A stretch of DNA of 64,000 nucleotides. It comes from Agromyces flavus. GTDB lineage: Bacteria > Actinomycetota > Actinomycetes > Actinomycetales > Microbacteriaceae. The DNA is taken from positions 682,001 through 746,000 of the forward strand of contig NZ_LT629755.1 in NCBI RefSeq assembly GCF_900104685.1, read 5' to 3'. Position 1 is the first letter of the stretch; each line of letters starts with the position of its first letter. The position numbers were made by a program, and so were the translations under genes. The notes under the pieces were generated by a model. That model was not told the DNA's origin, searched no databases, and was given only the letters and a program-made list of their open reading frames with translations. Positions 16,044 through 47,507 of this stretch are shown in pieces.

Positions 16044-17540
16044 ATGTCGCTCTCTCCGCTCCGGCTCCGCCTCCTCGTCGCCTCCCTCCTCACCGTCGCC
16101 TTCCTCGGCGCCCTCGACCACACGATCGTCGCGACCTCGCTCGCCACCGTCGCGGGCGAGCTCGGCGCACTCGAGCAGATGAGCTGGGTCGTGGTCGGCT
16201 ACACCCTTGCGGGCACGGCCCTGTTCCCCGTGCTCGGCAAGCTCGGCGACCTCGTCGGGCCGCGCCTCGTATTCCTCACCTCGGTCGCCGTCTTCCTGGT
16301 CGCCTCGCTCGCGTGCGGCTTCGCCCAGGACATGACGCAGCTCGTCATCGCCCGCGTCGCGCAGGGCATGAGCTCCGCGGGCGTGCAGCTGATGTCGCAG
16401 ACGATCGTCGCGTACGTCACCACCCCGCGACAGCGCCCGCGCTACATGAGCATCATCGGCGCCGCCTTCCCCATCGCCATCCTCGTCGGCCCCGTCCTGG
16501 GCGGCGTCATCACCGACTACTGGGGCTGGCCGTGGGTGTTCTGGATCAACCTCCCGTTCGGCCTCGCGGCGCTCGTGCTCGCCGCCTTCGCCGTGCCGCA
16601 CGTCGAGACCGGTGCTCCCCGGCGCTTCGACTACGGCGGCGCCGTGACGTTCACGGTCGCACTCGTCGCGCTCGTGCTCGGCGTCACGTGGATCGGCCAC
16701 CCGGGGTCGGCGCTCGCCGCGATCGTGGCATTCGCCGTCGCCGGCATCGGACTCGCGGCCTTCTTCGCGATCGAGATGCGCGCACGCGAGCCCATCGTGC
16801 CCCTCGGGTTCTTCGCCGACCGGACCGTCGCCGCAGGCGTCGCCCTGTCGGCCATCATCGGCATCGGCCTGTTCTCGGTCACCGCCTACCTGCCCACGTA
16901 CTTCCAGATGGCGTATCGCACCAGCGCGACGGTGTCCGGGCTCGTGCCGATCGCGACGGTGTTCGGCATGCTGGTGGCGAACCTCGGCACCGGATGGCTC
17001 GCCAGCCGCACCGGCCGCTACCGCGGGTACACGATCTTCGGCACGACCCTCGCGTCGTCCGGCCTGCTCGTCATGGCGCTGCTGCCCGTCGGCACGCCGC
17101 TGTGGGTGCCGATGATCGTGATGTTCGCCGTCGGCATCGGCACCGGAGCGTTCATGAGCCTCGTCATCGCCGTCGTCCAGGGCGCCGTGCCGCGGAACGA
17201 GACCGGCACGATCACCGCGACGACGAACCTCGTCCGGCAGATGGGCTCGACGCTCGGCACCGCGGTCATCGGCGGCGTCATCGGCGCCGGCGTCGCCGCG
17301 CAGCTGCCCGCGTCGCTCGATGCCTCCTCGCTCACCCCCACCCTCGTGCACGGCTCAGCGCCCGCCGTGCAGGCCGAGGTCGCGCAGATCTATGGCGACG
17401 TCTTCGTGCCCGTGTTCGCCGCGCTCGCGATCACCTACGCGATCGGAATCGTGGCGGCGATCCTGCTCCCGCCGGGCCGGCTGTCCGACGAGCCGGCGCC
17501 GTCCGCCACCGAATCCGTCACCGAACCCGCCGCCGCGTGA
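16044..17540 (+). CDS. MFS transporter, DHA2 type
   Basis: 498 residues from ATG 16044; the longer frame from 15945 begins at or before the predicted transcription start and adds only Arg-rich residues. This is a 14-helix DHA2 antiporter: helix 1 contains ALDHTIVATSL, the 2-3 loop has GKLGDLVGPR, and motif C appears as GPVLGGVI. The C-terminal tail is short and acidic. It leads an operon with the GMC oxidase 20 bases downstream. It probably exports a toxic aglycone or imports the glycoside; the direction is not deducible. Confidence 0.88.
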   Translation: MSLSPLRLRLLVASLLTVAFLGALDHTIVATSLATVAGELGALEQMSWVVVGYTLAGTALFPVLGKLGDLVGPRLVFLTSVAVFLVASLACGFAQDMTQLVIARVAQGMSSAGVQLMSQTIVAYVTTPRQRPRYMSIIGAAFPIAILVGPVLGGVITDYWGWPWVFWINLPFGLAALVLAAFAVPHVETGAPRRFDYGGAVTFTVALVALVLGVTWIGHPGSALAAIVAFAVAGIGLAAFFAIEMRAREPIVPLGFFADRTVAAGVALSAIIGIGLFSVTAYLPTYFQMAYRTSATVSGLVPIATVFGMLVANLGTGWLASRTGRYRGYTIFGTTLASSGLLVMALLPVGTPLWVPMIVMFAVGIGTGAFMSLVIAVVQGAVPRNETGTITATTNLVRQMGSTLGTAVIGGVIGAGVAAQLPASLDASSLTPTLVHGSAPAVQAEVAQIYGDVFVPVFAALAITYAIGIVAAILLPPGRLSDEPAPSATESVTEPAAA

Positions 17541-17560
17541 GACTCGAAGAGGAGACGCAC

Positions 17561-19156
17561 ATGTCGCACCACCCCACCATCGCCGTCGTCGGCAGCGGAC
17601 CGATCGGCTCGGCGTACGCACGCCTCCTGCTCGAAGGACTGCCCGATGCCCGCGTCGTGATGTTCGAGGCCGGCCCCCAGCTGACCGACCGCCCCGGTGA
17701 GAGCGTCCGCAACATCGCCGACCCCGACGAGAAGGCCCGCGCCCGCGAGATGTCGCAGGGCCCGCAGGCCGGCGAGCACCGAGAGTCGCTCGGCATCCCG
17801 GCCGCGACCGCGGTCGAGGGCATGTTCACGGCGCGCCAGGGCACGCACCTGTTCGACTTCGGCGGCGAAGGTTCGGCGCACGCGCGGACCTTCCCCGCTG
17901 CTGCCGGGTCCACGAACGTCGGCGGACAGGGCGCGCACTGGACCTGCGCCATCCCGCGTCCGGCATTCAGCGAGAAGGTCGACTTCATCCCCGACGACGA
18001 GTGGGAGGACCTCATCGTCGAAGCGGAGCGCCTCCTGCACAAGCAGAATGCGGCGTTCGCCGACTCCGCCGTCGGACGCGGCATCCGCTCGCTGCTCTCG
18101 GAGGAGTTCGACGGCGAGCTGCCCGAGGGCTACGGTCCCAGCACGCTGCCCGTCGCGGGCGACCCGCAGCCCGACGGCAGCATGCGCTGGGCAGGCGCCG
18201 ACGCGGTGCTCGGCCCGCTCATCGAGCCGGGGAGCCCGCTCGCCGAGCGGTTCGAACTGCGCGACCTGTCGCTCGTGCGCCGCATCGAGCGCGACGGCGA
18301 CCGCGTCACCGGCGTCACGGTGGAGGACCTGCGCACGAAGCAGACGGCGTTCGTGCCGGCCGACCTGGTCGTCGTCGCCGCCGACGCCTTCCGCTCCCCC
18401 CAACTGCTCTGGGCGTCCGGCATCCGTCCGAAGGCGCTCGGGCACTACCTCACCGAGCACCCCGTCGTCATCTCGACCGTCGCACTCGACGGCGAGCGGA
18501 TGGGCCGTTACGCGACCGAGGACGAGCTCGACGCCGAGCTCGCCCGTCGCTCCGCGAACGCGGCCGACCCGGTCGCGGCCGTGAACCGCATCCCGTTCTC
18601 GGAGCCCGGGCACCCGTACGCGCTGCAGGTCATGTACTCCGAGACCACTCCGTTCCCGATGGACCCGGGGCACCCCCTCGCGAACAACCGCTGGGGCTAC
18701 GTCAACATGGGGTACGGCATGCGCAAGTTCCCCCGCTACGAGGACGCCGTCACCTTCGACGACGACGAGCTCGACTACCGCGGCTTCCCGAACATGACCG
18801 TCCAGTACGAGCTCACCGAGCGCGAGCTCACCGAGATCGAGGCGGCGACCGAGCGCCTCCGTCGCGCGGGGGACGCGCTCGGCACCTTCGTCGCCGAACC
18901 GCGGCTCCTGCCGAACGGCTCGAGCCTGCACTACCAGGGCACGATGCGCATGGGAGCGACCGACGACGGCACGTCGGTCGCCGATCCGTGGTCGCGCGTC
19001 TGGGGCGTCGACGGACTCGTGGTGGGCGGCAACGCCCTGATCCCGACCGCGACGGCCATGAACCCGACGCTCATGAGCGTCGCGATCGCGGTGCGCGGGG
19101 CGCGGAAGGCCGTCGAGGAGCTCTCGGCCGACACCGCGGCATCCGTCACCGCCTGA
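17561..19156 (+). CDS. GMC-type FAD sugar 3-oxidase, CarA-like
   Basis: 531 residues preceded by AAGAGGAG. The ADP-binding motif VVGSGPIGSAYARLL is near residues 8-22. NVGGQGAHWT at about residue 125 is the flavin-contact segment of the pyranose oxidase / GMC group. The active-site pair is His457 in SLHYQGTMRMG and Asn501 in TATAMNPT. Related enzymes (pyranose 2-oxidase, FAD-dependent C-glycoside 3-oxidase CarA) oxidise a ring hydroxyl of sugars or C-glycosides. The two deglycosidase-like genes directly downstream make a glycoside 3-oxidase the best reading. A divergent second copy is at 37051. Confidence 0.85.
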   Translation: MSHHPTIAVVGSGPIGSAYARLLLEGLPDARVVMFEAGPQLTDRPGESVRNIADPDEKARAREMSQGPQAGEHRESLGIPAATAVEGMFTARQGTHLFDFGGEGSAHARTFPAAAGSTNVGGQGAHWTCAIPRPAFSEKVDFIPDDEWEDLIVEAERLLHKQNAAFADSAVGRGIRSLLSEEFDGELPEGYGPSTLPVAGDPQPDGSMRWAGADAVLGPLIEPGSPLAERFELRDLSLVRRIERDGDRVTGVTVEDLRTKQTAFVPADLVVVAADAFRSPQLLWASGIRPKALGHYLTEHPVVISTVALDGERMGRYATEDELDAELARRSANAADPVAAVNRIPFSEPGHPYALQVMYSETTPFPMDPGHPLANNRWGYVNMGYGMRKFPRYEDAVTFDDDELDYRGFPNMTVQYELTERELTEIEAATERLRRAGDALGTFVAEPRLLPNGSSLHYQGTMRMGATDDGTSVADPWSRVWGVDGLVVGGNALIPTATAMNPTLMSVAIAVRGARKAVEELSADTAASVTA

Positions 19157-19200
19157 ATCCACCCGAAATCCACCCGAACCGACCACGAGAGAGAGCGACG

Positions 19201-20502: not shown

Positions 20503-20547
20503 GCCGCGGCATCCGCTTCACGAACCACCCAGGACAGGACATCGACC

Positions 20548-22023
20548 ATGCCGAACGGCCTCATCCAGGCGGACAGCCTGCGAACCCACCCCGAGGGCCT
20601 CGCGCTCTCGCTCACGCTGCCGTGGTACCGCAGCCTTTGGCTCTCGTCGGTCTCGACGCTGCGCCTCACGGTCGACGGTGAGGAGGTCGCCGCCGAGGAT
20701 CTCGCGTTCGAGCTCGGCGGCGTGCGCTACGCGCTCGACGAGCTGCCGCAGCAGAGCGACGTGCTCTGGTACCTGCAGGCGCATCCGCTGCTCATCGCGA
20801 AGCGGGGCCAGCCCGTCGCGCTCGGCGAGACCCACGACGTCGAGGTCTTCGGCGAGCTGCGCCTGCCCTACATGCAGATCGCGCCCGGCGCCGAGGGCGG
20901 GCCGGGCATGTACGTGCCCAACGTGGTGCGCCAGTCGCTCGCCCTCACGGTCACCGACCACGACGCGCGCGTCCCGGCACTGGCGACGGATGTCGCGCCG
21001 CCGCCGACCGCGACGGACGCCGACCCGTTCAAGCTCGGCCTCACGCTCTACTCCGCGAGCGCGGAGTTCCGCGCGGGCTGGTACGACTTCGACGGCCTGC
21101 TCGACCGCGTCGCCGAGCTCGGGATCGGCCCGGGCATCGAGATCGTCGCGTCGCAGGTGCTGCCGACCTACCCGGTCGTCTCCGACGGGTTCGTGCGCAC
21201 CTGGCGCGACGCATTCGACCGGCACGGGTTCGACGCGAGCTCGTTCGGCGCGAACCTCGACATGGGGCGCCGCCGCGACCGCGACATGACGCCCGACGAG
21301 GAGTTCGCGTTCAGCGAGACGCTGTTCCGCGGTGCGGCGAAGCTGGGCTTCCCGCTCGTGCGCATCCAGTCTGCCAAGCCCGAGCTGCTGCGTCGGCTGC
21401 TGCCCGTGGCCGAGGAACTGAACCTCAAGCTGGGCTACGAGATCCACGCGCCGCTCGGCCCGAACGCCGACCCCATCCTGAAGGTCCGCGAGACCTACGC
21501 CGAGCTCGACTCGCCGCTGCTCGGCTTCGTCGCCGACTTCTCATCGACCATGCACGCGATGTCGCCCACGCTGCTGCGTGCGGTGCGCCGCGCGGGCCTC
21601 GACGACGAGGCGATCGACCGCCTGCAGGCCATCTGGGCGACCGACGCGCCCATGCGCGAGCGCCAGGAGGAGTTCATCGGCTACCTGCGCGGCCGCGACT
21701 TCGACCCGGGCCGCCTCGGCTCGTTCGCGCACCTCGCGTTCAACATGCACGGCCACGTCGACCCGCGCGAGTGGGCCGACATCATGCCGCAGATCCTGCA
21801 CGTGCACGCGAAGTTCTACGACATCGACGAGCAGGGCCAGGAGCCCGCGATCGACTACCCCGAGCTCGTACGTGTCTTCGTCGAGGGCGGGTATCGCGGC
21901 TACTGGTCGAGCGAGTGGGAGGGCCACGCGTTCGCCGAGCTCGGCGAGGTCGACCCGCTGCTGCTCGTGCGCCGCCAGCACGACCTGATCCGCGCCAGCA
22001 TGCGGGCGGTGCAGCCGGCATGA
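20548..22023 (+). CDS. fused beta-alpha C-glycoside deglycosidase-like protein 2
   Basis: 491 residues. The beta domain is at about 1-135 (LTLPWYRSLWLSSV, LRLPYMQIAPG, GGPGMYVPN) and the TIM barrel at about 150-485. All candidate metal and catalytic positions are present: Glu298 and His300 (YEIHAP), Asp330 (FVADFSST), His420 (HVHAKFYDID) and Glu456 (SSEWEGH). It is a fusion of the two proteins that exist separately as 42035-42451 (beta) and 40179-41243 (TIM barrel) in the same window; the shared string NLDMGRR-(R/K)-DRDMTPDEE shows close kinship. Expected role is cleavage of the glycosidic C-C or C-O bond of a 3-oxo glycoside. Confidence 0.83.
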   Translation: MPNGLIQADSLRTHPEGLALSLTLPWYRSLWLSSVSTLRLTVDGEEVAAEDLAFELGGVRYALDELPQQSDVLWYLQAHPLLIAKRGQPVALGETHDVEVFGELRLPYMQIAPGAEGGPGMYVPNVVRQSLALTVTDHDARVPALATDVAPPPTATDADPFKLGLTLYSASAEFRAGWYDFDGLLDRVAELGIGPGIEIVASQVLPTYPVVSDGFVRTWRDAFDRHGFDASSFGANLDMGRRRDRDMTPDEEFAFSETLFRGAAKLGFPLVRIQSAKPELLRRLLPVAEELNLKLGYEIHAPLGPNADPILKVRETYAELDSPLLGFVADFSSTMHAMSPTLLRAVRRAGLDDEAIDRLQAIWATDAPMRERQEEFIGYLRGRDFDPGRLGSFAHLAFNMHGHVDPREWADIMPQILHVHAKFYDIDEQGQEPAIDYPELVRVFVEGGYRGYWSSEWEGHAFAELGEVDPLLLVRRQHDLIRASMRAVQPA

Positions 22024-22112
22024 GCGACGCGGAACTGCGAGAACGCAATCGAGCCGTCGTGGCGGCATTCCTCGCGGCGGACCTCACCAAGCGCGAGGAA
22101 CGACTCGGATGA
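22020..22112 (+). pseudogene. 30-residue remnant of an NTF2/SnoaL-like gene
   Basis: A frame with a four-base ATGA overlap with the upstream fusion gene encodes 30 residues, then stops. The text ELRERNRAVVAAFLAAD looks like the first helix of SnoaL/PhzA-B-like NTF2-fold proteins, which normally run 130-260 residues. In the second locus a full SnoaL-like gene (41236-42018) sits next to the same deglycosidase genes, so this is most simply the start of a deleted homologue. A true small peptide cannot be excluded. Confidence 0.5.
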
Positions 22113-22124
22113 AGGGAAGCGTCC

Positions 22125-23084
22125 ATGGCTGATCCGGACGCGACGACCGTGCCGGACTTCCGGCGCATGCCGCTCGCGGAGGCCGTGCGCTGGCTCGCCG
22201 AGAACGGCGAGCCCGAGGACCCTCGCCCAGACATCGACACCGCCTCGCTCACGCGCCGCTTCCCGCACCTCGCGTCAGTGGAGACCGCCGACCTCCGCAT
22301 CGACGGCCCGCACGGACGCCTCATTCCGGCCCGGCGGTATCGGGATGCCGCGGCCGAGGCATCCGGTCGCGCCCTGATATGGGTGCATGGCGGCGCCTTC
22401 ATCGGCGGGCACCTCGACATGCCGGAGTCGCACTGGGTCGCCCTCGAGCTGGCGTCGCGCGGCATCCCCGTGCTCGCCCTCGACTACGTCAAGTGCCTCG
22501 GTGAAACCCACTTCCCCGAGCCGTCGGACGACGTGCTCGTGGGATGGCGCCACGCGGTCGCACACGCCGACGAGCTGTTCGGCGTCCCGGCGAGCGCAGT
22601 CCTGCTCGGCGGCGCGAGCGCGGGCGGCAACCTGACGGCAGGGGCGACCGCCAGGCTGCGCGACAGCGGGGAGGGTCTGCCGGCGGGACTCGTGCTCGTC
22701 TACCCCGTCGTGCATCCGAACGGTCCCGAGGCGTCCGCCGAGGTCGATGCGGACTCGCCCCACGGTCAACTGTCCCTGAACTTCGTCGGAAGCATCGAGG
22801 CGCTCGCCGACCCGCACGCGTTCGCGGCACTCGGAGCCGCCGACCGCTTCCCGCCGTCGCTCGTCGTCGTGTGCGAGAAGGACGGGCTGCGACCGTCGGG
22901 TGAGGCGTTCGCGCACCAGCTCGAGGAAGCGGGCGTCGATGTGACGCTGCATCTGGAGGTCGGCGCCGATCATGGCCATATCGACGAGCCCGCCGATCCG
23001 ACGGCGTTGCCGACGCTCGAAGCGATCGCCCGGTGGACGAAGGAGCGCCGTGAACCAGATGTCAGAGGGGAGATCGACCGATGA
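22125..23084 (+). CDS. alpha/beta hydrolase (HSL-type esterase)
   Basis: 319 residues. The oxyanion motif HGGAFIGG is near residue 88 and the nucleophile elbow GGASAGGNL carries the serine near residue 165; an acidic residue and HGHIDEP near residue 285 complete a triad. This is the hormone-sensitive-lipase/acetyl-esterase family. In a glycoside operon it could remove acetyl, malonyl or aromatic acyl groups from sugar hydroxyls before C3 oxidation. It shares HGGAFIGG-DLD/HLD and TRFPHLA segments with the hydrolase at 48304, so the two are paralogues. It overlaps the GH43 gene by four bases. Confidence 0.85.
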   Translation: MADPDATTVPDFRRMPLAEAVRWLAENGEPEDPRPDIDTASLTRRFPHLASVETADLRIDGPHGRLIPARRYRDAAAEASGRALIWVHGGAFIGGHLDMPESHWVALELASRGIPVLALDYVKCLGETHFPEPSDDVLVGWRHAVAHADELFGVPASAVLLGGASAGGNLTAGATARLRDSGEGLPAGLVLVYPVVHPNGPEASAEVDADSPHGQLSLNFVGSIEALADPHAFAALGAADRFPPSLVVVCEKDGLRPSGEAFAHQLEEAGVDVTLHLEVGADHGHIDEPADPTALPTLEAIARWTKERREPDVRGEIDR

Positions 23085-24568
23085 CTGAGACCACCACCTT
23101 CCGCAATCCCGTCCTCGGCGGCGACCGCCCCGACCCCGCCGTCATCAAGGTCGGCGATGAGTACTGGATGACGTACTCCTCGTTCGAATCGGCCCCGGGC
23201 CTGCTCCTCTACCGCTCGCGCGATCTCGTGAACTGGACGTACGCGGGATCTGCCCTCGATGAGCCGATCGGCAGCACGTTCGCCGTCGACATCGCCGAGC
23301 ACGACGGACGCTTCTTCATCTACATCCCCTTCATTCCTGCGCCGTGGTCGACGCTCACGGCGCCGGCGATCTTCGTGATCCACGCCGACTCGATGGAAGG
23401 ACCGTGGTCGGAGCCGATCGACCTCGGCATCCGCCGCGCGATCGACCCGGGCCACGTCGTGGGAGAGGACGGCAAGCGGTACCTCTTCGTCAACGGCATC
23501 CGTCGCATCGGGTTGACCGACGACGGCCTCGCGACCGTCGGGGAGCTCGAGCAGGTGTACGACGGCTGGCGCTACCCCGACGAGTGGATCACCGAGGCGT
23601 ATGCGCTCGAGGGGCCGAAGCTCTTCTGGAACAACGGGTGGCTCTATCTCGTGAGTGCAGTGGGAGGCACGGCGGGCCCCGCGACCGGCCACATGGTCAT
23701 CGCCGCTCGCTCCGGGTCGGTGCACGGCCCGTGGGAGAACAGCCCGCACAACCCGGTGACCCGCACGACGGACGCCGCCGAGAGGTGGTGGTCGCGCGGG
23801 CACGCGACGCTGGTGCGAGGTACAGGCGAGGGCGATTGGTGGATGGTCTCGCACGGATACGAGAACGGCTACCGATCCCTCGGCCGGCAGATCCTCCTCG
23901 AGCCCGTGACGTGGACCGACGACGGGTGGCCCCTCGGCGCGACCGACATCGGCGGCGAGCTCACGGCCCCGATCGGCGCCGCGCCGCAGCGAGCGGCTGC
24001 CCCGTTCCACGACGACTTCCAGACCCTCCGGCTGGGGGAGCGGTGGACGTTCCACGCGCCCTCGCCCGGCGAGGTCGAGCGGCTTCGCGTCGACGGTGAC
24101 GGCCTCGTGCTCGCGGGGAAGGGCACGTCCCCCGGCGACACGTCGCCGCTCGCGGTCATCGCGGATCAGCACGCCTACGAGGTCGAGGTCGACGTGGAAC
24201 TGTCCGACGGCGATGCCGAGGGCGGTCTGCTCCTCTACTTCAACAACAGGCTGTTCTGCGGCATGGGCATGGACGGCGAGCGGATGCTGAGCTACGCAGG
24301 GGGACACGTCACGCACTGGCGGGAGCCCGCCCCCGCGGTCCGCCGGCTGCAGCTGCGGCTGCAGAACGACCGGCACATCGTGACCGCGTGGTACCGGCGG
24401 CCGGGCGGTGAGTGGACGCGACACGCCATCCGCTACGAGACCTCGGGCTACCACGTCAACACGATGGGCGACCTGCAGAGCCTGCGGCCGGCCCTCTACG
24501 CCGCCGCAGAGGGCTCGGTCCGCTTCCGCGACTTCCGGTACCGCCCGCTCAACGCTCCTGAAGGCTGA
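23081..24568 (+). CDS. glycoside hydrolase family 43 protein
   Basis: 495 residues without a signal peptide, so cytoplasmic. The five-bladed propeller domain covers about 1-310, with a beta-sandwich (about 315-495) like that of two-domain xylosidases. The catalytic set of the family is visible: base Asp18 (RPDPAV), pKa-tuning Asp122 (AIDPGH) and acid Glu177 (ALEGPKLF). Beta-xylosidase or alpha-L-arabinofuranosidase activity on imported plant glycosides is likely. It is the last gene of the 16044 operon and its 3' end overlaps the convergent GH39-like gene by 20 bases. Confidence 0.88.
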   Translation: MTETTTFRNPVLGGDRPDPAVIKVGDEYWMTYSSFESAPGLLLYRSRDLVNWTYAGSALDEPIGSTFAVDIAEHDGRFFIYIPFIPAPWSTLTAPAIFVIHADSMEGPWSEPIDLGIRRAIDPGHVVGEDGKRYLFVNGIRRIGLTDDGLATVGELEQVYDGWRYPDEWITEAYALEGPKLFWNNGWLYLVSAVGGTAGPATGHMVIAARSGSVHGPWENSPHNPVTRTTDAAERWWSRGHATLVRGTGEGDWWMVSHGYENGYRSLGRQILLEPVTWTDDGWPLGATDIGGELTAPIGAAPQRAAAPFHDDFQTLRLGERWTFHAPSPGEVERLRVDGDGLVLAGKGTSPGDTSPLAVIADQHAYEVEVDVELSDGDAEGGLLLYFNNRLFCGMGMDGERMLSYAGGHVTHWREPAPAVRRLQLRLQNDRHIVTAWYRRPGGEWTRHAIRYETSGYHVNTMGDLQSLRPALYAAAEGSVRFRDFRYRPLNAPEG

Positions 24569-26000: not shown

Positions 26001-26009
26001 TCCGACTCC

Positions 26010-34273: not shown

Positions 34274-34351
34274 TGTTTCCGACGCAAGCGTGGGAGCATT
34301 TTTCCTGAGCGTTCGATGCCCGAAGCGCTTGACGACGACGTCAGGAAGCAG

Positions 34352-35314: not shown

Positions 35315-35319
35315 CGTCC

Positions 35320-36259: not shown

Positions 36260-37050
<791 letters not shown>

Positions 37051-37054
<4 letters not shown>

Positions 37055-38653: not shown

Positions 38654-39058
38654 GTGATCCCCGATCGCATCATCGAGCAGGGCACGCTCACGACCGATGG
38701 GACACGTGCCTCGGTCGAGGTCCGCCTGCCCTGGTACCGGGCGCTCCCGGCGTCGTGCATCGCCGGCGCGAAGCTCAGCGTCGACGGCGTCGAGGCGCCC
38801 GCAGAGTCGCTCCGGTGGGAGATGAACGGCAGGACGTTCACGTTCGCCGAGCTCGTGCCGAACACCGAGGAGTGGTGGTTCCCCACCGATTCGGCGGTGC
38901 TGTCCGGCGATGTCCCGGTGGCAGAGGATGGCGAGCACAAGGTCGCCGTCGAGCTGGTCCTCTACATCCCGTACATCGTGATCGGCGCCGACGAGGTGCT
39001 GCACATCGAAGAGAAGGACTCCAAGACCATGAGGGCCAAGAAGGCGGTGGCGGCATGA
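38654..39058 (+). CDS. C-glycoside deglycosidase beta-subunit-like protein
   Basis: 134 residues from a GTG with AGGAGA upstream. Single beta-sandwich domain of the C-glycoside deglycosidase beta-subunit type (DUF6379/CGDB): VRLPWYRALPASCI near residue 23 and VELVLYIPYIVIG near residue 100. In the characterised CarBC, DgpBC and DfgAB enzymes this subunit binds the TIM-barrel subunit and completes the active site. Its partner is the next gene, which overlaps it by four bases. The C-terminal tail is Lys-rich. Confidence 0.85.
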   Translation: MIPDRIIEQGTLTTDGTRASVEVRLPWYRALPASCIAGAKLSVDGVEAPAESLRWEMNGRTFTFAELVPNTEEWWFPTDSAVLSGDVPVAEDGEHKVAVELVLYIPYIVIGADEVLHIEEKDSKTMRAKKAVAA

Positions 39059-40182: not shown

Positions 40183-41243
40183 CCGCCCTTCGACAGGCTC
40201 AGGAACGGGACGGCATCGCCGGCACCGGCATCAAGCTCGGCACCACCCTCTACTCGATGACGAGCGAGTTCGCCGCCGGCCTCTACACGCCCGAGACGCT
40301 CATCGCCGCCGTGCATCAGGAGGGCATCGGCCCCGGAGTCGAGTTCAACATCGCCCAGCTCCTGCGCACGTACCCCGACGTCGACGACGAGTTCGTGAAG
40401 CTGTGGTTCGACTCCCTCGAGAAGTACGGCCTCGAGGCGAGTGCGGTCGGCACGAATCTGGACATGGGTCGCCGCAAGGACCGCGACATGACGCCAGACG
40501 AGGAGCACGATTTCCTCGCCCGCCAGCTGAAGACGGCGAACACGCTCGGCTTCCGCAGGATCGTCATCCGTTCCGCGGGGAGGGAACTGCTGCGCAGCCT
40601 GCTCCCGCTCGCGGAGGAGTACGACCAGTACCTGGGCTACGAGATCCACGCGCCGGAAGGGCCCAACAGCCCCAAGGTCGTCCAGATCCGCGAGCTGTAC
40701 GACGAGCTGGGCAGCGAGCGCCTGGGCTTCACCGCGGACTTCTCATCGACGATGCACAGCCTCTCGCCGACCCTGCTGCGGACCCTTGGCAAGATGGGGA
40801 TGGACGAGAAGTACTTCCCGATCATGGACGAGATCTGGCACAAGCCGTTGCCGATGCACGTGCGCAACCAGGAGTTCGAGGACGTCCTCACTGCCGACGG
40901 CGTCGACTTCCTGCGTTTCGGCCCCTTCACGCGACTCGCCTTCAACATGCACGGGCTCGTGCCGCCCGAGGAGTGGCTCGACATCATGCCGCAGATCTTC
41001 CACGTGCACGCCAAGTTCTACGCCATCGACGACAACGGAAACGAGCCCGCGATGGACATCCCGCGGATCGTCCGCCAATTCGTCGAAGGCGGCTACACCG
41101 GCTACCTCTCGAGCGAGTGGGAAGGTCACGCCTTCGCCGACCTCGGCGAGGACGACCCCATCGACCTCGTGAAGAAGCAACATGCCCTCATGCGCAGGGC
41201 CATCGAAGAAACCGTCGCTGCCAAGGAGGCCGCACGTGTCTGA
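40179..41243 (+). CDS. deglycosidase-like TIM barrel, second alpha subunit
   Basis: 354 residues. Candidate ligands and base: Glu155 and His157 (YEIHAPEGPN), Asp187 (TADFSST), His277 (HVHAKFYAID) and Glu313 (SSEWEGH). It is clearly the unfused counterpart of residues 150-490 of the fusion at 20548, sharing NLDMGRR-DRDMTPDEE and MPQI-HVHAKFY. Its beta partner is probably 42035-42451, two genes downstream. Two alpha subunits in one operon suggest two substrates or a heteromeric complex. The N-terminus (LRQAQERDG) includes a dispersed repeat. Confidence 0.83.
   Translation: MTALRQAQERDGIAGTGIKLGTTLYSMTSEFAAGLYTPETLIAAVHQEGIGPGVEFNIAQLLRTYPDVDDEFVKLWFDSLEKYGLEASAVGTNLDMGRRKDRDMTPDEEHDFLARQLKTANTLGFRRIVIRSAGRELLRSLLPLAEEYDQYLGYEIHAPEGPNSPKVVQIRELYDELGSERLGFTADFSSTMHSLSPTLLRTLGKMGMDEKYFPIMDEIWHKPLPMHVRNQEFEDVLTADGVDFLRFGPFTRLAFNMHGLVPPEEWLDIMPQIFHVHAKFYAIDDNGNEPAMDIPRIVRQFVEGGYTGYLSSEWEGHAFADLGEDDPIDLVKKQHALMRRAIEETVAAKEAARV
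40187..40206. repeat. short dispersed repeat CCTTCGACAGGCTCAGGAAC
   Basis: Same repeat family as 39061-39080, again in the first codons of a deglycosidase-like gene and again read as LRQAQ. Two adjacent genes carrying it at the same place suggests duplication of one repeat-bearing ancestor or repeated insertion. Confidence 0.7.
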
Positions 41244-42018
41244 CACCATCGCCCCCGCCACGCTCGCCGAGCTCCAGTCGGAACTGGCCGCCCTGCGCGA
41301 GGAGGTCGCCGCCGCGCGCGCCCTCGCGCAGCGCGCGGAGGACCGTGGACAGGTGGAGAACCTGTTCAACCGCTACATGTACCTGCACAACGCCTTCGAG
41401 GACGAGCAGATCATCCCGATGTGGGTGAAGGAGGGCACCGAGGGCATCCGCGCGCGCTACACCAACGCGGGGCAGTACACCACCTGGAAGAGCGTGACCG
41501 ACTACCACCGTGGTCGCCCGCATCCCGTCGGAAAGCTCATCCTGCACGCCACCACCACCCCGGTCATCGAGGTCGCGGCCGACGGCAGGACCGCCAAGGG
41601 CGTGTGGATCATGGCGGGCACCGAGTCGGGCCTTACCGACCCGAAGGTCGCCGAGGCGTTCCCCGACATGTACTCGCCTGAGGAGGTGCTCGGCAAGAAG
41701 GTCTGGGCGCACTGGGTGTGGTGCAAGTACGCGATCGACTTCCTCAAGCAGGACGGCGAGTGGAAGTTCTGGAAGTTCCGCTGCTACGAGCTCGCCCGGG
41801 CCCCCTTCGAGGAGAACTGGGTCAGCTTCGGCCTGAAGAACCAGGGCGCGTTCGACCTCGACCTGATGTACTTCGGCGACGACGGCAAGCCCGTCTTCAT
41901 GCCGCCGGCCGACGAGCCGGTGCCCTCCACCAACCACCCGTACAGCCCCGAGACGGTGCAGAGGCTCGAGCCGGAGCCGCCCGTTCCGCACGGGACCTTC
42001 ACCGACACGTACGTCTGA
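41236..42018 (+). CDS. SnoaL-like (NTF2-fold) protein
   Basis: 260 residues from a GTG (AAGGAGG upstream), overlapping the previous gene by eight bases. Residues 7-40 form a coiled coil (ELQSELAALREEVAAARALA); residues 40-190 form the NTF2/SnoaL_4 domain (VENLFNRYMYLHNAFED, later WKFRCYELARAPFEENW); and the C-terminal 60 residues are Pro-rich. SnoaL-fold proteins include dehydratases, isomerases and hydroxylases. Placed between an alpha subunit and its likely beta subunit, it may be part of the complex or act on the released enol or keto sugar. The specific reaction is unknown. Confidence 0.8.
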   Translation: MSDTIAPATLAELQSELAALREEVAAARALAQRAEDRGQVENLFNRYMYLHNAFEDEQIIPMWVKEGTEGIRARYTNAGQYTTWKSVTDYHRGRPHPVGKLILHATTTPVIEVAADGRTAKGVWIMAGTESGLTDPKVAEAFPDMYSPEEVLGKKVWAHWVWCKYAIDFLKQDGEWKFWKFRCYELARAPFEENWVSFGLKNQGAFDLDLMYFGDDGKPVFMPPADEPVPSTNHPYSPETVQRLEPEPPVPHGTFTDTYV

Positions 42019-42034
42019 CCTGCTCGGAGGAGCC

Positions 42035-42451
42035 ATGGCCACCCACGATTCCCTGTTCGCCGACGACGACGTGCGCCGCACCGATTCCGGCCTCGCCGTC
42101 TCCGTGCAGCTTCCCTGGTACCGCAGCCTCTGGCTTTCCGCGGTCGACGGGGTCGCGGCATCCGTCAACGGCGAGCCGATCGCCACCGAGAAGCTCCGCT
42201 TCGTGCTCAACGGTCGCGAGTACCGCATCGAGGAGCTCCCCGAGCAATGGGACACCCTGTGGTTCGTGGCGGACCGCCCGGAGATCCTGATCGATCTCGG
42301 ACGCGCTCCGTCGGCGGGCGAGAAGGTCACCGTCGAGGTCGCACTCACCATGCGTCTGCTCTACATGCAGATCATGCCGGGCGTCGACGGCGGCCCCGGG
42401 CGCTACGTGACCAACCGGGTTCCCGTTCAGCGCGAGCTGGTGTTGACATGA
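42035..42451 (+). CDS. C-glycoside deglycosidase beta-subunit-like protein, second
   Basis: 138 residues with GGAGG upstream. The beta domain has LPWYRSLWLSAVDG at about residue 25, LYMQIMPG near residue 110 and GGPGRYVTN following. It is the free counterpart of the N-terminal domain of the fusion at 20548 (same LPWYRSLWLS and YMQI-PG-GGPG-YV-N pattern). It is expected to pair with the TIM barrel at 40179-41243. It overlaps the Gfo/Idh gene by four bases. Confidence 0.85.
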   Translation: MATHDSLFADDDVRRTDSGLAVSVQLPWYRSLWLSAVDGVAASVNGEPIATEKLRFVLNGREYRIEELPEQWDTLWFVADRPEILIDLGRAPSAGEKVTVEVALTMRLLYMQIMPGVDGGPGRYVTNRVPVQRELVLT

Positions 42452-43641
42452 GCGAGACCCGGCCCCTGCGGGTCGCGATGATCGGGTACGGGTTCATGGG
42501 GGCTGCGCATTCGGTGGGGTGGCGTCAGGCACCCAGGGTGTTCGAGCTGCCCGCGGCGGTGGAGATGGCCGTCGTGACTGGGCGCAATGCAGAGGCGGTG
42601 GCGGATGCTGCGGCGCACTGGGGCTGGCAGGAGTCGGCGACCGACTGGCGCGCGGTGATCGCGCGCGACGACATCGACATCGTCGACATCGTGACGCCAG
42701 GCGACTCGCACGCCGAGATCGCGATCGCGGCATTGGAGGCGGGCAAGCACGTGCTCTGCGAGAAGCCGCTGGCGAACACCGTGGCGGAAGCGGAGGCGAT
42801 GGCGGATGCTGCTTCCCGCGCGGCTGCCCACGGCGTCCGGTCGATGGTCGGCTTCACGTACCGCCGCGTGCCTGCGGTGACGTTCCTTCGCGACCTCATC
42901 GCTCAGGGAGCCGTCGGAAGGATCGCGCAGGTTCGTGCGGCATATCGCCAGGACTGGCTCGTCGACCCCGAGATGCCGCTGGCGTGGCGCCTGCAGAAGG
43001 AGCACGCCGGCTCGGGTGCGCTCGGAGACATCGGCGCGCACATCATCGACATGACGCAGTTCGTGACGGGTCTGGACGTGACCGCCGTGTCGGGTGTGCT
43101 CGACACGATCGTCAGGGAGCGGCCGTTGCAGGGTTCCGGCTCGGGCCTGTCGGGGACGGCGGCCGAGGGGTACGGCGAAGTGACGGTCGACGATGTCGCG
43201 ATCTTCACCGGTCGCCTGTCGACCGGCGCGCTCGTCTCGTTCGAGGCGACCCGGTTCGCGACGGGGCGCAAGAACGCCCTGACGTTGGAGGTGTCCGGCG
43301 ACAAGGGCGCCCTCCGGTTCGAGCTCGAGGACCTCAACACGCTGTGGTTCTACGACCGCACCGCCCCGGCCGAGACGCAGGGTTTCACCCGGATCCTCGT
43401 CACCGAGGCGCAGCATCCCTATGTCGCAGCGTGGTGGCCCGCGGGTCACATGCTCGGCTACGAGCACGGGTTCAGCCACCAGGTGGTCGACCTCATCACC
43501 GCCATCGCCGAGGGCACTGACCCGCACCCCTCCTTCGCGGAGGGCCTCTCGGTGCAGCGGGTGCTCGATGCGGTGGAGCAGAGCTCCGAGCGCGGCTCCG
43601 CATGGGTCCCGGTCGGCGCCTCGGTCCCCGCCTCTCGATGA
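42448..43641 (+). CDS. Gfo/Idh/MocA-family oxidoreductase
   Basis: 397 residues. The Rossmann motif [13 protein letters not shown] is at about residues 13-25, Glu105 lies in CEKPLANT, and the C-terminal sheet domain contains [14 protein letters not shown] with the likely catalytic Asp/His. It resembles inositol- or 1,5-anhydro-sugar-type dehydrogenases. In the gut DgpA system a family member oxidises the C-glycoside; here the GMC oxidases could do that, so this protein more probably reduces or rearranges the keto-sugar product. It is coupled to the upstream beta-subunit gene. Confidence 0.88.
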
Positions 43642-43673
43642 ATTCGAACCGACGACAGAGCAAAGGAGCTGGG

Positions 43674-44678
43674 ATGCCTCGTCCGATCACGCTGTTCACC
43701 GGCCAGTGGGCCGACCTCCCGTTCGAGGAGGTGGCGCGGCTCGCAGGGGGGTGGGGCTACGACGGCCTCGAGATCGCCTGCTGGGGTGACCACCTCGACG
43801 TATCGCGTTGGGACGACGACGCATACGTGCAGTCCCGGCTGGACATTCTGGAGCGCAATGGGCTGAAGGTGTGGGCGATCTCCAACCACCTCACCGGCCA
43901 GGCGGTCTGCGACGACCCGATCGATCAGCGCCACCGCGACATCCTGTCCGACCGCGTCTGGGGCGACGGGGATCCCGAGGGTGTGCGGCAGCGCGCCGCG
44001 GAGGACATGAAGGACACCGCCCGGATCGCGGCGAAGCTGGGCGTGAGGACCGTCAACGGGTTCACCGGGTCGTCGATCTGGAAGGCGGTGGCGATGTTCC
44101 CGCCCGCGTCGGACGAGTGGATCGCGGCGGGCTACCAGGACTTCGCCGACCGGTGGAACCCGATCCTCGACGTGTTCGAGGAGGTGGGGGTCCGGTTCGG
44201 GCTCGAGGTGCACCCCAGCGAGATCGCGTACGACTACTGGACCGCCAAGGCGGCGCTCGAGGCGATCGGTCACCGCGAGAGCTTCGGGCTGAACTTCGAC
44301 CCGTCGCACTTCATGTGGCAGCAGCTGGACCCGGTCGCGTTCGTGCTCGATTTCGCCGACCACATCTTCCATGTGCACGTGAAGGAATCGATCACCAACC
44401 TCGACGGACGCAACGGCGTGCTCGGCTCGCACCTGCCATGGGCGAACCCCCGCCGCGGGTGGACGTTCGTGTCCACCGCACACGGCCAGGTGCCGTGGGA
44501 GCCGCTGTTCCGGGCGCTGAACGCGATCGGCTACGACGGGCCGACGAGCGTCGAGTGGGAGGACGCCGGGATGGACCGGCTGGTCGGCGCGCCCGAAGCC
44601 CTCGCTTTCGTGCGGAAGCTCGCTGAGATCACGCCCCCGCACGCGTCCTTCGACGCGGCATTCGCGACGAGGGCGTGA
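43674..44678 (+). CDS. sugar phosphate isomerase/epimerase-like TIM barrel
   Basis: 334 residues with AAAGGAG upstream. Xylose-isomerase-like barrel with likely ligands in [29 protein letters not shown] and VEWEDAG. This is the group often found with Gfo/Idh enzymes in inositol and rare-sugar clusters. It is the first of three consecutive barrels with separate ligand sets, so they probably catalyse successive or parallel isomerisations or eliminations. I cannot assign the substrate; a keto-sugar from the deglycosidase reaction is a reasonable inference. Confidence 0.85.
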
Positions 44679-44686
44679 GGTCGGCC

Positions 44687-45631
44687 ATGAAGTGGAGCTA
44701 CATGGACCACTGGCGCAGCCAGTCGCCGCACGGCCCGATCGATCAGTGGGAATCGCACGACACGATGGACCGCTTCCTGAAGCAGGTCGCGGCGGTCGGA
44801 TACGACGCGATCGACACCTTCGACTTCCGCTACTACCAGATCATGGGGATGTACGGGTCGGTGGCGAACTACCAGGAGTTCGTGCGCGAGCGTGGGCTCG
44901 AACGCATCGTGAACATCTTCCACGCGGCCGACTACGACACTCGGAACTATGCGCCGCACCTGCCCGAGACGCACGAGAACATCCTCGAGGACTTCCGCAT
45001 CACGATGGACCGCTGGTCGGGCATCGAGCTCGACAACATCATCGTGATGCCGGCCACGCTCTATTACGACATGGAGCCGGTCACCGAGGATAAGATCAAG
45101 ATCACGGCCGACCTCTGGAACAAGGTGGGCGAGATCACGGGTGACGCCGGTGTGAAACTGACATGTCACCACGAGTTCTTCTGCGGCATCCAGTCGAAGG
45201 AGGAGCTCGACACGTTCTACGCGAACACCGACCCCCGGTTCGTGAACCTCTTCGTCGACACCGCCCAGCACTGCATCGCATCGGTGGATCCCGTGGAGTT
45301 CTACGAGCAGTACGCGGACCGTGTGACCGGGTTCCACTTCAAGGACACCCGCCACCGCGACCTCATCGGCGACTACCGCCGCCGACCCGACTCGGAGATC
45401 ATGGCCGAGACGACCCCGCGCTGGTTCTACGAGATGGGCGACGAGGGCGGCCTCGTCGACTTCGAGGCCTTCATGCGCGCCGTCGTGCGCAACGGCTACG
45501 ACCGATGGCTCACGGTCGAGCACGACAAGGCGAACAAGCTCGGCGGGGACCACGCCGAGAGCACCGCGATCGCCCGCTGGTACGCGAAGAACGTCCTCGA
45601 GCGCGTTGCGGCAGAGGAGTCGGGACGATGA
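44687..45631 (+). CDS. sugar phosphate isomerase/epimerase-like TIM barrel
   Basis: 314 residues from the ATG at 44687; GAGG lies six bases before it, and an in-frame GTG at 44675 is less likely. Ligand segments are LTCHHEFFCG, LFVDTAQHC, GFHFKDTRH and TVEHDKA. It shares PRWF-E-G-GLVDF and NGYDRWL-VEHD with the following gene, so the two are paralogues. Expected function is isomerisation or dehydration of a sugar derivative in the same pathway. It overlaps its paralogue by four bases. Confidence 0.82.
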   Translation: MKWSYMDHWRSQSPHGPIDQWESHDTMDRFLKQVAAVGYDAIDTFDFRYYQIMGMYGSVANYQEFVRERGLERIVNIFHAADYDTRNYAPHLPETHENILEDFRITMDRWSGIELDNIIVMPATLYYDMEPVTEDKIKITADLWNKVGEITGDAGVKLTCHHEFFCGIQSKEELDTFYANTDPRFVNLFVDTAQHCIASVDPVEFYEQYADRVTGFHFKDTRHRDLIGDYRRRPDSEIMAETTPRWFYEMGDEGGLVDFEAFMRAVVRNGYDRWLTVEHDKANKLGGDHAESTAIARWYAKNVLERVAAEESGR

Positions 45632-46638
45632 TCCGATGGTCGTACGGAATCAACCAGTTCAAGCCGCAGTTCGACGATTTCACCCGGCGCCGCGAACATG
45701 AGCGGGCGCTCCGGGTCATCTCGATCTCCGGATTCACCGGCGTCGAGCTGAGCGCCGGCAGCGGGCGTTGGGAGCCGCTGGGGAATCCGACGCAGATCGC
45801 TGCCAACTTCGGCTCGGTGGCGGGCTTTCGTGAATTCGTCGAGGATGCCGCGCTCGACTCCGTGAGCAGCTGGGTATGGGATCCGACCGCGCCGTTCCAG
45901 GAGGATCTCTCCCACGGAACGGATCCGCTCGACCCCGAGGCGCGGCCCCTGCTCGTCGAACATGCTCGGTGGCTCGCGAAGGCGCTCGAAGAGCTCGGCG
46001 GGAGTGTCCTGGTCGCTCGCCCGTGCGCCGGTGCGGGTCGCACGGGACCGCTCGACGACGCCGCCATCGAACGCCTCGCATCCACCTGGCAGCTCGTCGG
46101 CGAGGCGATCGCCGAGTACGGCGTAAGGCTCGGGCTCCATTTCGATTTCCTGTCCGGGCTCCGGGCGGATGGCGGGTTGGAGCGGTTCGTCGCGGCAAGC
46201 GACCCCGATGTGGTGGGCCTCACCCTCGACACGGCCGAGTTGACCATCGCCGGCATCGACCCCGTCCGCTTCCTCGAGCGCCACGCCGATCGAGTCGTCC
46301 ACGTCCAGCTCAAGAACGCCGCCGTCGTGGACGATCTCGAGGAGTACCGGCAGCCGGCGGCGGAGTACGGGGTGCTGAGGGCGGGCGGATCCCGGGCGGT
46401 GCCGCGCTGGTTCCTCGAGCTGGGAGCTTCGGACGGGTTGGTCGACTCGACGAAGTTCGTGCGCGCCCTCCGGGAGTGCGACTACGACGGCTGGATCGTC
46501 GTGGAGAGCGACTTCACGCCGCACCCTGCCACGAGCGTCATGTTGAACGGGTGGGAGATGCAGCACGTCCTCGCTCCCATCCTCCAAGGACCGTCCACCA
46601 CGACGTCGGACACGCGAAATGAGAGAGCCCTCACATGA
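45628..46638 (+). CDS. sugar phosphate isomerase/epimerase-like TIM barrel
   Basis: 336 residues. Ligand segments are LGLHFDFLSG, LTLDTAEL, HVQLKNA and VVESDF. A paralogue of the preceding gene, less conserved in the middle. The last 30 residues after VVESD (ending in a Thr/Ser-rich tail) are extra. It overlaps the ThuA-like gene by four bases, ending the series of three barrels. Confidence 0.82.
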   Translation: MIRWSYGINQFKPQFDDFTRRREHERALRVISISGFTGVELSAGSGRWEPLGNPTQIAANFGSVAGFREFVEDAALDSVSSWVWDPTAPFQEDLSHGTDPLDPEARPLLVEHARWLAKALEELGGSVLVARPCAGAGRTGPLDDAAIERLASTWQLVGEAIAEYGVRLGLHFDFLSGLRADGGLERFVAASDPDVVGLTLDTAELTIAGIDPVRFLERHADRVVHVQLKNAAVVDDLEEYRQPAAEYGVLRAGGSRAVPRWFLELGASDGLVDSTKFVRALRECDYDGWIVVESDFTPHPATSVMLNGWEMQHVLAPILQGPSTTTSDTRNERALT

Positions 46639-47507
46639 CCGAACTGCTGAACGTGCTCATCCTCTCGGGGCACATGACCCGGGAGCACGACAACGAGTTC
46701 CGCAGCTTCCGGCTGCACAACCAGTGGATCACCACCCTCCTGGAGGACACCGGGCGTTTCAGGGTGCGCGTCGTCGAAGACCCGCGCGGCCTCGGTGCCG
46801 AGATCATCGACAAGTACGACGTGCTGATCGTCGTGTTCGAGGGTCGCGACGGGTTCTTCGAGAAGGCCGTCGGATTCGGAGCGGAAACGGATGCCGCGAT
46901 CCTGAAGTTCGTCCACGACGACGGTAAGGGCATCGTGTGGTTCCACGGCTCCGCCGCGCAGGAGGACCGCTGGGGCTACCCCGAGGAGTACAACGTCATG
47001 CGGGGTGCGAAGCTGAGCGCGTATGAGACCGGCCTTCGTCCCCGGCCGTGGGGCGAGGCGCAGCTCGACACCGTCGAGCCGCGGCATCCGATCACGGACG
47101 GGATCAGCGCCCGCTGGACGGTCACCGGCGACGACATCCTCACGGGCGTGAACCTGTACGAGGGTGCTCAGGTGCTGCTGACGACCTTCGACGACCTGGA
47201 GGCCTACGAGAAGGCGCCCGTCTGGCCGATGTCGCACTATCCGGTCGAGATCCCCGAAGGCGGCATCGCCGAGTTGAACGGCATGAACACCGACCAGCCC
47301 ATCGCGTGGATCAACGAGTACGGCACGGGCCGGTCGTTCACGATCACGATCGGCCACGACATCGACACGTTCCGTCGGATCGAGTTCATCCGGATGTTCC
47401 CGCGAGGTGTCGAATGGGCGGCGACGGGGGAGGTCACGCTCGAGGGGCCGGATCGGCGGGGCGAACGGCGGTTCCTTCCGTGGCCGTACTACAACGACGA
47501 GGGCTGA
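46635..47507 (+). CDS. ThuA-like (class I amidotransferase-fold) protein
   Basis: 290 residues of the ThuA family (trehalose-utilisation protein fold), starting LNVLILSGHMTREHD, with GIVWFHGSAAQED near residue 100 and YEGAQVLLTTF near residue 175. ThuA and ThuB take part in metabolism of 3-keto-trehalose in rhizobia, and ThuA-fold proteins are common beside Gfo/Idh genes in keto-sugar clusters. This is the last gene of the operon and fits a role in handling 3-keto sugars. No catalytic Cys-His-Glu triad of true amidotransferases is apparent. Confidence 0.85.
   Translation: MTELLNVLILSGHMTREHDNEFRSFRLHNQWITTLLEDTGRFRVRVVEDPRGLGAEIIDKYDVLIVVFEGRDGFFEKAVGFGAETDAAILKFVHDDGKGIVWFHGSAAQEDRWGYPEEYNVMRGAKLSAYETGLRPRPWGEAQLDTVEPRHPITDGISARWTVTGDDILTGVNLYEGAQVLLTTFDDLEAYEKAPVWPMSHYPVEIPEGGIAELNGMNTDQPIAWINEYGTGRSFTITIGHDIDTFRRIEFIRMFPRGVEWAATGEVTLEGPDRRGERRFLPWPYYNDEG

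Follow-up and report, generated by a model that had tools for sequence, protein, structure and literature searches.

Enzymatic cleavage of the carbon–carbon bond between an aryl group and a sugar is rare. The stretch of Agromyces flavus DNA analyzed here (64,000 nucleotides; hereafter the window) carries several genes related to C-glycoside deglycosidases (CGDs), which raises the question of how many of their products may cleave such a bond and what the remaining one, and the genes around it, might do. The reading favored here, at a probability of about 0.6, is that the locus would serve the catabolism of plant C- and O-glycosides with four canonical CGDs, and that a fifth CGD-fold unit, referred to as family C, would have been re-tooled, with enediol chemistry as its likeliest activity.

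Profile, PDB-sequence and fold searches identified in the window a catabolic locus with oxidase, CGD, glycosidase, esterase, importer and monooxygenase genes (Table 1). A preliminary description, confined to the region 16044–47507 except for one fusion at 11169, had listed two GMC flavin oxidases, GH3, GH43, GH106 and GH39-like proteins, an esterase, an ABC importer and flavin monooxygenases. All of these were recovered with Pfam, the GMC oxidoreductase domains lying at 17561–19156 and approximately 37051–38604 and the flavin monooxygenases at 26010 and 6990; no ATPase for the ABC importer was found by Pfam among the genes scanned. The locus reaches past the region given, with aglycone-type genes at 4897–10170 and family C with a ROK gene at 11169–13974. 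Each of the five aglycone-type genes (g7–g11) was near family C in 47–54 of 80 loci, these being the best 80 of 89 and picked by C itself; some of the named loci are probably mislabeled contigs and were left in the counts. TIM barrels were detected by Pfam at 36260, 39055, 40179, 43674, 44687 and 45628. In a search of the organism's own genome, matches to the CGD β-domain profile (CGDB, PF19906) were confined to this window.

Table 1. Coordinates, strand and assignment of the features of the locus in the window.
Position	Strand	Feature	Basis or recurrence
4897..10170	+	Aglycone-type genes g7–g11: FAA hydrolase, cyclase, FAD monooxygenase, amidohydrolase, FAA hydrolase	Pfam
10181..11113	-	LysR-type regulator	Pfam
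11169..12632	-	Family C, CGD-fold β–α fusion; all metal ligands present, H149 to Q, E307 to G, Y39β to I	
12706..13974	-	ROK family protein (inferred start), upstream of C in the same orientation	Pfam
14099..15139	+	Gfo/Idh/MocA oxidoreductase (Gfo1)	Pfam
15136..15897	+	No Pfam match; fold predicted to be Gfo/Idh/MocA-like	Fold prediction
16044..17540	+	MFS transporter	Pfam
17561..19156	+	GMC oxidase, clade II POx/CGOx substrate loop (SETTPFPMDP)	Pfam; clade motif PMC10807413
19201..20502	+	Type A fused β–α CGD, closely similar to that of M. testaceum (8qrz/8un2), with Gln in place of ligand H269	
20548..22023	+	Type B fused β–α CGD; barrel 55% identical to 40179	
22125..23084	+	Alpha/beta-hydrolase esterase	Pfam
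23081..24568	+	GH43 glycosidase	Pfam
24549..26000	-	GH39-like protein	Pfam
26010..27173	-	FAD-dependent monooxygenase	Pfam
27214..29382	-	GH3 glycosidase	Pfam
29500..30810	-	ABC solute-binding protein	Pfam
30942..34196	-	GH106 alpha-L-rhamnosidase	Pfam
34316..36156	+	Two ABC permeases (34316, 35320)	Pfam
36260..37054	+	Hydroxypyruvate-isomerase-like TIM barrel, under that family's curated cut-off	Pfam
37051..38604	+	Clade IV CarA/PsG3Ox-type glycoside 3-oxidase	Pfam, loop, PDB-sequence match
38654..39058	+	CGD β subunit 1	Pfam
39055..40182	+	CGD α subunit 1	
40179..41243	+	CGD α subunit 2, AgCGD2-type	
41236..42018	+	SnoaL-like protein, between α2 and β2	Pfam; 42/80 loci
42035..42451	+	CGD β subunit 2, AgCGD2-type	
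42448..43641	+	Gfo/Idh/MocA oxidoreductase (Gfo2)	
43674..46638	+	Three xylose-isomerase-like TIM barrels (43674, 44687, 45628), weakly IolE-like	
46635..47507	+	ThuA-family protein	Pfam; 50/80 loci

The fusions of β domain and barrel proposed at 19201 and 20548 were confirmed, each in one reading frame. Specifically, type A combined CGDB (111.6 bits; curated cut-off 27.6) with AP_endonuc_2 (curated cut-off 31.1), and type B combined CGDB (51.8 bits) with a barrel that scored 29.5 with AP_endonuc_2, under the cut-off, and was identified by its match to the α subunit of AgCGD2 (E = 8.1e-130). CGDB was found alone in the genes at 38654–39058 (59.8 bits) and 42035–42451 (51.5 bits); these had been counted with 39055 and 40179 as one split set, and the genes are indeed split but make up two complete α/β pairs, units 1 and 2. 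The β-like domains of units A, B, 1 and 2 thus all passed the CGDB cut-off and that of C fell just under it, and the AP_endonuc_2 cut-off was passed by the barrels of A, 1 and 2. Close sequence matches were those of 19201 to the fused CGD of M. testaceum (E = 3.4e-239) and of 40179 to the AgCGD2 α subunit (E = 3.5e-189).

The His149/Glu307 pair (AgCGD2 numbering) is present in all four of these units, as is the β-domain Tyr, and the metal ligands E147, D179, H269, K271 and E305 are complete in B, 1 and 2. Unit A keeps four of the five, with Gln at H269 in 13/13 rows, of which three are the window's own copies. As the solved M. testaceum CGD likewise has Gln there, an enzyme deposited as a CGD tolerates substitutions at conserved sites, a point that counts against the re-tooling of C. 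His149 and Glu307 were kept in 120/120 type B homologues (best 120 of 906), and His149 in all readable rows of the fetched loci (A 13, B 11, α1 63, α2 63). This residue table took rows of at least 45% identity, one lower row being reported apart, and included the window's own copies (three of A, two of B and one each of α1 and α2); one α2 row was gapped at E147/H149 and one had Ser at D179. Types A, B, 1 and 2 are referred to as the canonical CGDs of the locus, and their homology suggests that they would cleave 3-oxo C-glycosides.

The number of paralogues, earlier called striking, proved ordinary. CGDB was found in 15/199 genomes of the same family, 11 of which have three to five matches (one match being C's own β domain in five of the 11), and several CGDs per CGD-bearing genome is the usual state in this sample. 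Recent tandem duplication was rejected as an explanation, as the five types formed five groups with 100% ultrafast bootstrap in a tree of 9–11 rows per class, for which the program warns of long branches meeting between the groups, and several of the types co-recur in other genera.

Among known systems, the α2/β2 pair matches AgCGD2 of Arthrobacter globiformis NBRC 12137, the source of AgCGD1 and AgCGD2 (PMC8563793; AgCGD2 PDB 7dnm/7dnn). The locus of that strain contains orthologues of the isomerase, oxidase, β1, α1, α2, β2, Gfo2 and 43674 barrel in the same order, together with a family C α gene with an inverted β gene; the methods of PMC8563793 name two α homologues only in this strain. In contrast, the fused types A and B and the glycosidase/esterase block belong to the window and were not found in the A. 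globiformis stretch examined. The M. testaceum fused CGD (8qrz, 8un2) is, like type A, a β domain followed by a barrel in one chain, likewise with Gln at H269, and no difference in architecture from type A was found. The Deinococcus aerius CGD (PDB 8qvc, 8umc) belongs to the same CGD families.

The two glycoside oxidases belong to different clades. The 37051 oxidase, searched from 37120, matched PsG3Ox (E = 2.2e-245) and MtCarA (E = 1.4e-233) (PDB 7qf8, 7dve) and combines GMC domains with a substrate loop, LDASPVPLADDD, that equals the clade IV consensus. The 17561 oxidase was assigned to clade II by its loop motif, which is the POx/CGOx consensus quoted in PMC10807413. MPOx of Microbacterium sp. 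3H14 (PMC11673046), a clade II POx/CGOx, has NPPFQL at this loop, unlike the 17561 oxidase, and its preference for phlorizin and aspalathin is therefore not transferable to the latter. Both oxidases of the window are predicted to oxidize glycosides at C3.

Taken together, the locus appears to be a full set of genes for using plant compounds whose sugar is carbon–carbon-linked, a known kind of system, with gene roles suggested by homology to characterized enzymes and conserved synteny. Outer sugars would be trimmed by the GH106, GH43 and GH3 enzymes and the esterase, the glycosides would enter by MFS or ABC transport, and a flavin oxidase of clade II or clade IV would oxidize C3 of the sugar. 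The four canonical CGDs would then remove the aglycone by metal-assisted β-elimination, the 3-keto sugar would be recycled by Gfo/Idh and TIM-barrel enzymes, and the aglycone would be degraded by the products of the upstream genes. The locus might alternatively be devoted mainly to O-glycosides, through C3 oxidation and elimination, with C-glycosides as minor substrates: according to PMC10628242, PuCGE also cleaves 3-keto O-glycosides, and the GH106, GH43 and GH3 genes would fit. We regard this as rather improbable, given that the canonical units keep the β Tyr that matters for C-glycosides, that AgCGD2, the relative of α2/β2, is reported to be active on a C8-glycoside, and that the MPOx loop differs from that of the window's oxidase. 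The close matches to characterized or solved enzymes and the conserved synteny argue for the catabolism of both C- and O-glycosides, as proposed in the preliminary description, except for the deglycosidase role given there to 11169.

That protein, family C, does have the β-domain/TIM-barrel architecture ascribed to it. It scored 25.7 bits with CGDB, its barrel matched the AgCGD2 α subunit (E = 1.4e-19), and the solved structures nearest to its AlphaFold2 model (mean pLDDT 89.8) were CGDs, the listed matches covering mainly residues 141–477, so that no weight attaches to the lack of other folds among them; a CGD fold, β sandwich plus TIM barrel, is thus predicted. The five metal ligands were kept in 120/120 C homologues (best 120 of 646, window copy included; about 8000 candidates were scored to obtain the homologue totals) and in every readable case of the 80 loci (79 or 80). 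In the same 120 homologues H149 was replaced by Gln in 119 and Gly in one, and E307 by Gly in all; in the loci the corresponding counts were Gln in 80/80 and Gly in 79/79 readable. The position of β Tyr39 (PuCGE numbering) was Ile in 79/79 readable loci and in all 40 rows of alignment A1 (a second alignment, A2, comprised 35 sequences). C therefore shares the fold and metal ligands of CGDs and departs from them in the CGDB cut-off, His149, Glu307 and β Tyr39. An alignment artefact was rejected as the source of the His loss, since the A1 stretch YEEIQGQQTP (consensus) places no His close to the metal Glu however it is shifted, and since the same alignment method shows the His in the canonical paralogues.

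When the His or the Glu of the pair is replaced by alanine, 10.4% or 49.8% of activity, respectively, is left in PuCGD and 1.8% or 1.9% in MiCGD (PMC8563793). According to PMC10628242, changing β Tyr39 abolishes the cleavage of C-glycosides and reduces that of O-glycosides only slightly, and AtOGE, which eliminates O-glycosides, is inactive if the equivalent His is missing. Which residues enable C–C cleavage is still argued, PMC8563793 and PMC10628242 disagreeing in part. As residues reported to matter for this cleavage are gone, C was rejected as a fifth deglycosidase, and the four CGD-like units of the preliminary description become four canonical units plus C.

Loci picked by C cannot give the rate of CGD loci without C, and samples of 199 and 297 genomes were therefore searched. 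Close C (E < 1e-100) was present in nine of the 199 genomes, all among the 15 with CGDB (hypergeometric 4.5e-12), and in each of the nine C had another CGDB match no more than 10 kb away on its contig. In the 297-genome sample C occurred together with a CGD in 3/3 cases, the samples overlapping and the window's genome being in both; a sample of the phylum was queried with C alone. A canonical CGD was absent from the DNA examined in 10/80 C loci, six of them short pieces and four with full flanks. Genome G051, which carries several CGDs and ROK, lacks C, so that C is dispensable in some genomes. C formed one clade (support 100/99; 99/98 with its most distant member, in a tree of about five rows per class) that extends into another family of the phylum, and its β partner, adjoining in 80/80 loci, occurs fused, separate or inverted in place. 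The four β domains near the distant C-like protein of genome G645 all keep Tyr, so that the Tyr change is shown for the clade's core and no further. An operator-like motif, GACATAAG, was found upstream of C in 28/80 loci vs 21/1600 random windows, its copies in the window being no more than expected by chance.

Because the bond-cutting residues are swapped out and the metal site is kept, C probably catalyzes a reaction not yet described; we think that it is a metalloenzyme acting on 3-keto glycosides without cutting them by β-elimination. As a re-tooled CGD that has retained the β domain and five-ligand site, C would most likely perform metal-dependent enediol chemistry, epimerizing or tautomerizing next to the 3-keto group of a glycoside still bearing its aglycone, and would turn non-standard sugars into forms that the canonical CGDs can cut. 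The idea of such an epimerase derives from the fold, the lost residues and the kept β domain. In its full form, with C rearranging the sugar so that the true deglycosidases receive substrates that were stalled or not of the gluco type, the proposal is tentative and well short of an even chance.

The mildness of Glu loss alone in PuCGD counts against re-tooling and would suit a C that is still a β-eliminase on another substrate class, its base being a different residue (e.g. Glu285 beside Glu286) or a metal hydroxide. The conserved metal ligands and β domain are consistent with this, and Glu285 is invariant in the 40 A1 rows. Such an eliminase is nevertheless unlikely, as the base His has an important role in CGDs (PMC8563793) and is essential in the sequence-unrelated AtOGE (PMC10628242), C has none within several residues of its metal Glu, and Glu307 and β Tyr are missing too. 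An equally doubtful role for C would be that of a pseudoenzyme or a sensor of ligands, binding a 3-keto glycoside and controlling the locus with the ROK protein. ROK was found upstream of C in 76/77 readable loci (76/80 overall), always on the strand of C and at a distance of up to 300 bp from the C unit in 63/76, but a ThuA-like gene separates the two in seven loci, and conservation of all five metal ligands across a deeply diverged clade favors catalysis by C.

Family C may thus be regarded as a natural experiment, in which the fold, metal site and β domain of a CGD are the same while the catalytic positions have been replaced and kept so across a deep clade. A step still missing from the way soil actinobacteria metabolize C-glycosides could come to light through it, and these bacteria include the source strain of AgCGD1 and AgCGD2.

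All four matches to CGDB (PF19906, the C-glycoside deglycosidase (CGD) beta subunit) in the single-contig 3.69 Mb host genome were above the profile cut-off and lay within the window (682001-746000 of that contig), where genes were called by codon usage and every gene class named in the preliminary description was borne out by Pfam. Types A and B were each encoded by one reading frame with CGDB followed by the barrel, and the split genes formed two pairs, alpha1/beta1 and alpha2/beta2, with alpha2 and beta2 matching the AgCGD2 alpha and beta subunits at 3.5e-189 and 7.6e-52, respectively. Type A matched PDB 8qrz, titled as a Microbacterium testaceum C-glucosyl deglycosidase, at 3.4e-239, so that a fused CGD already has a solved structure. 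Active-site positions were assigned by comparison with AgCGD2 and carry the residue numbers of PMC8563793, which gives E147, D179, H269, K271 and E305 as metal ligands alongside the base His149 and Glu307. All of these were present in types B, 1 and 2; in type A, Gln replaced H269 in 13/13 rows (three from the window itself), as it does in the M. testaceum enzyme.

Main features of the locus and its surroundings (window positions)
Feature	Start	End	Strand	Content
Aglycone genes	47	10170		CoA-transferase subunits, two SDRs, MFS protein, two FAA hydrolases, cyclase, FAD monooxygenase, amidohydrolase; part 4897-10170 also found beside many C loci
Family C	11169	12632	-	fused beta-alpha CGD-fold protein
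GACATAAG motif	12680	12688		upstream of C
ROK	12706	13974	-	
Gfo1	14099			
15136 protein	15136	15897		253 aa, directly after Gfo1
Clade II oxidase	17561			GMC oxidase
Type A	19201			fused CGD
Type B	20548			fused CGD
Clade IV oxidase	37051			GMC oxidase
Unit 1	39055/38654			split CGD
Unit 2	40179/42035			split CGD
Gfo2	42448			
Histidine kinase and fusion	52894	57010		PAS histidine kinase, then response-regulator/thioredoxin-reductase-like fusion; outside locus

The two oxidases shared 41% aa identity and their substrate loops belong to two separate groups within the pyranose oxidase/C-glycoside oxidase space, SETTPFPMDP in the 17561 protein being the clade II loop and LDASPVPLADDD in the 37051 protein lying inside the clade IV consensus, as given in the available part of PMC10807413. 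In a PDB-sequence search the latter matched PsG3Ox at 2.2e-245 and MtCarA at 1.4e-233; because the PsG3Ox match starts at chain residue 15, the start at 37051 in the preliminary description is preferable to the automatic 37120.

By sequence, family C has conserved the metal site and beta domain and lost the base (H149 to Gln), the helper Glu (E307 to Gly) and the beta Tyr (Tyr39 to Ile). Distant C-like proteins from G014 (~36% identity) and G645, a genome from a different family of the phylum, showed the same Gln/Gly/Phe set as C with all metal ligands kept; the G645 protein was closest to type B (~32% identity). In the trees, a branch supported at 100/99 set the C group, including the G014 protein, apart from the rest, and support was 99/98 once the G645 protein was added; the tree program warns of long branches meeting at this point. 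Tyr occupied the motif position in 4/4 of the beta domains examined near the G645 protein, so the replacement in the beta domain is established only within the core of the C clade. CarA-, CGD- and fused-CGD-type parts and their clustering in soil actinobacteria are already known from the accessible sections of PMC8563793 and PMC10646112 (related papers: PMC11673046, PMC12724307, PMC12141560). The literature searched contained no description of the altered C family, which is weak evidence as subscription papers were mostly outside its scope.

Replacement of His or Glu by Ala left PuCGD with 10.4% or 49.8% of its activity and MiCGD with 1.8% or 1.9% (PMC8563793, accessible sections), and AtOGE, a sequence-unrelated O-glycoside eliminase, was inactive without its His (PMC10628242, accessible sections). 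Taken with the residues lost in C, these data make beta-elimination via the known route unlikely; a cryptic eliminase, for which the kept metal site could speak, is also doubtful. The fold list for the C model placed D-tagatose 3-epimerase-type enzymes after the CGDs, along with YcjR, a 3-keto-D-glucoside 4-epimerase. The metal-bound glutamates kept in C are similar to the two catalytic glutamates of these D-tagatose 3-epimerase-type enzymes. C might thus rearrange the sugar of a 3-keto glycoside rather than cut off the aglycone, and the aglycone-binding-type domain kept in C suggests that the substrate still carries its aglycone. We put the probability of a sugar-rearranging enzyme with an aglycone-bearing substrate at about 0.3.

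That C is instead a sensor tied to ROK appears improbable, to much the same degree as the cryptic eliminase. In the 80 named loci that were selected through their C genes (best 80 of 89), a same-strand ROK gene preceded C in 76 (three of the other four start at a contig edge, L061 does not), within 300 bp of the C unit in 63/76 and with a ThuA-like gene between them in 7. G051 has four CGDB matches and ROK, and a genome search found no C there, which speaks against a strict need for C. A C-type beta adjoined C in 80/80 loci, fused in 28, separate and co-directional in 37 and separate and inverted in 15 (L037-L040, L042, L044-L046, L048, L052-L056, L079). The inverted gene was placed between ROK and alpha, so that the alpha and beta components of what is presumably a single enzyme have divergent transcription; the same site in the remaining loci has beta fused or co-directional. 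Records titled Arthrobacter accounted for 10/15 of the inverted loci, including A. globiformis NBRC 12137 (L038), the source of AgCGD1 and AgCGD2. The GACATAAG motif preceded C in 28/80 loci vs 21/1600 random windows and in some loci was part of an inverted repeat, GACATAAGTNTGTC, a possible operator.

C (E<1e-100) occurred in 9 genomes of the 199-genome family sample and in 3/297 of the order sample, all within the 15 and 13 genomes, respectively, with CGDB. Four full-flank C loci showed no canonical CGD in the 10 kb flanks covered, a further point against a strict need. Counted at >=45% identity, neighbours in the 80 loci were alpha2 (64), beta2 (65), alpha1 (61), beta1 (57), Gfo2 (63), the 43674-type barrel (62), ThuA (50), clade IV (49) and clade II (22) oxidases and the aglycone-type genes of 4897-10170 (47-54 each), all lower bounds because flanks extend no further than 10 kb and ten loci are truncated. 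The genes at 47-10170 resemble a pathway that would break down aglycone rings; the histidine kinase and the fusion after it seem unrelated to the locus. The 15136 protein gave no Pfam match at E<=1, and 52 reading frames across the 80 loci shared 31-50% identity with it. The predicted structure (pLDDT 95.9) matches Gfo/Idh/MocA oxidoreductases, most of which are longer; this protein could therefore be a partner of Gfo1 that has degenerated from a full subunit. The Microbacterium-like CGD loci recorded under Planococcus sp. APC 4015 (L015) and Stenotrophomonas maltophilia P13 (L028) are probably mislabelled or contaminating contigs.

Among the matches listed, the nearest named homologues and best syntenic loci were from Agromyces and other Microbacteriaceae, pointing to an actinobacterium similar to Agromyces as the probable source. 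CGDB was found in 15/199 same-family genomes and absent from three further same-genus genomes of that sample. The number of paralogues, previously called striking, is typical for such loci, as 11 of the 15 carry 3-5 matches (the beta domain of C included in 5 of the 11), on one contig within 35 kb in 10/11 and spread in G051. The order B-A-oxidase-MFS-15136-Gfo1-ROK-C was kept in five Agromyces loci (L005, L007, L010, L031, L032), in three of which a weak ThuA-like hit separates ROK from C. Together, the family-wide counts and the conserved neighbours and order identify the locus as a conserved catabolic island.
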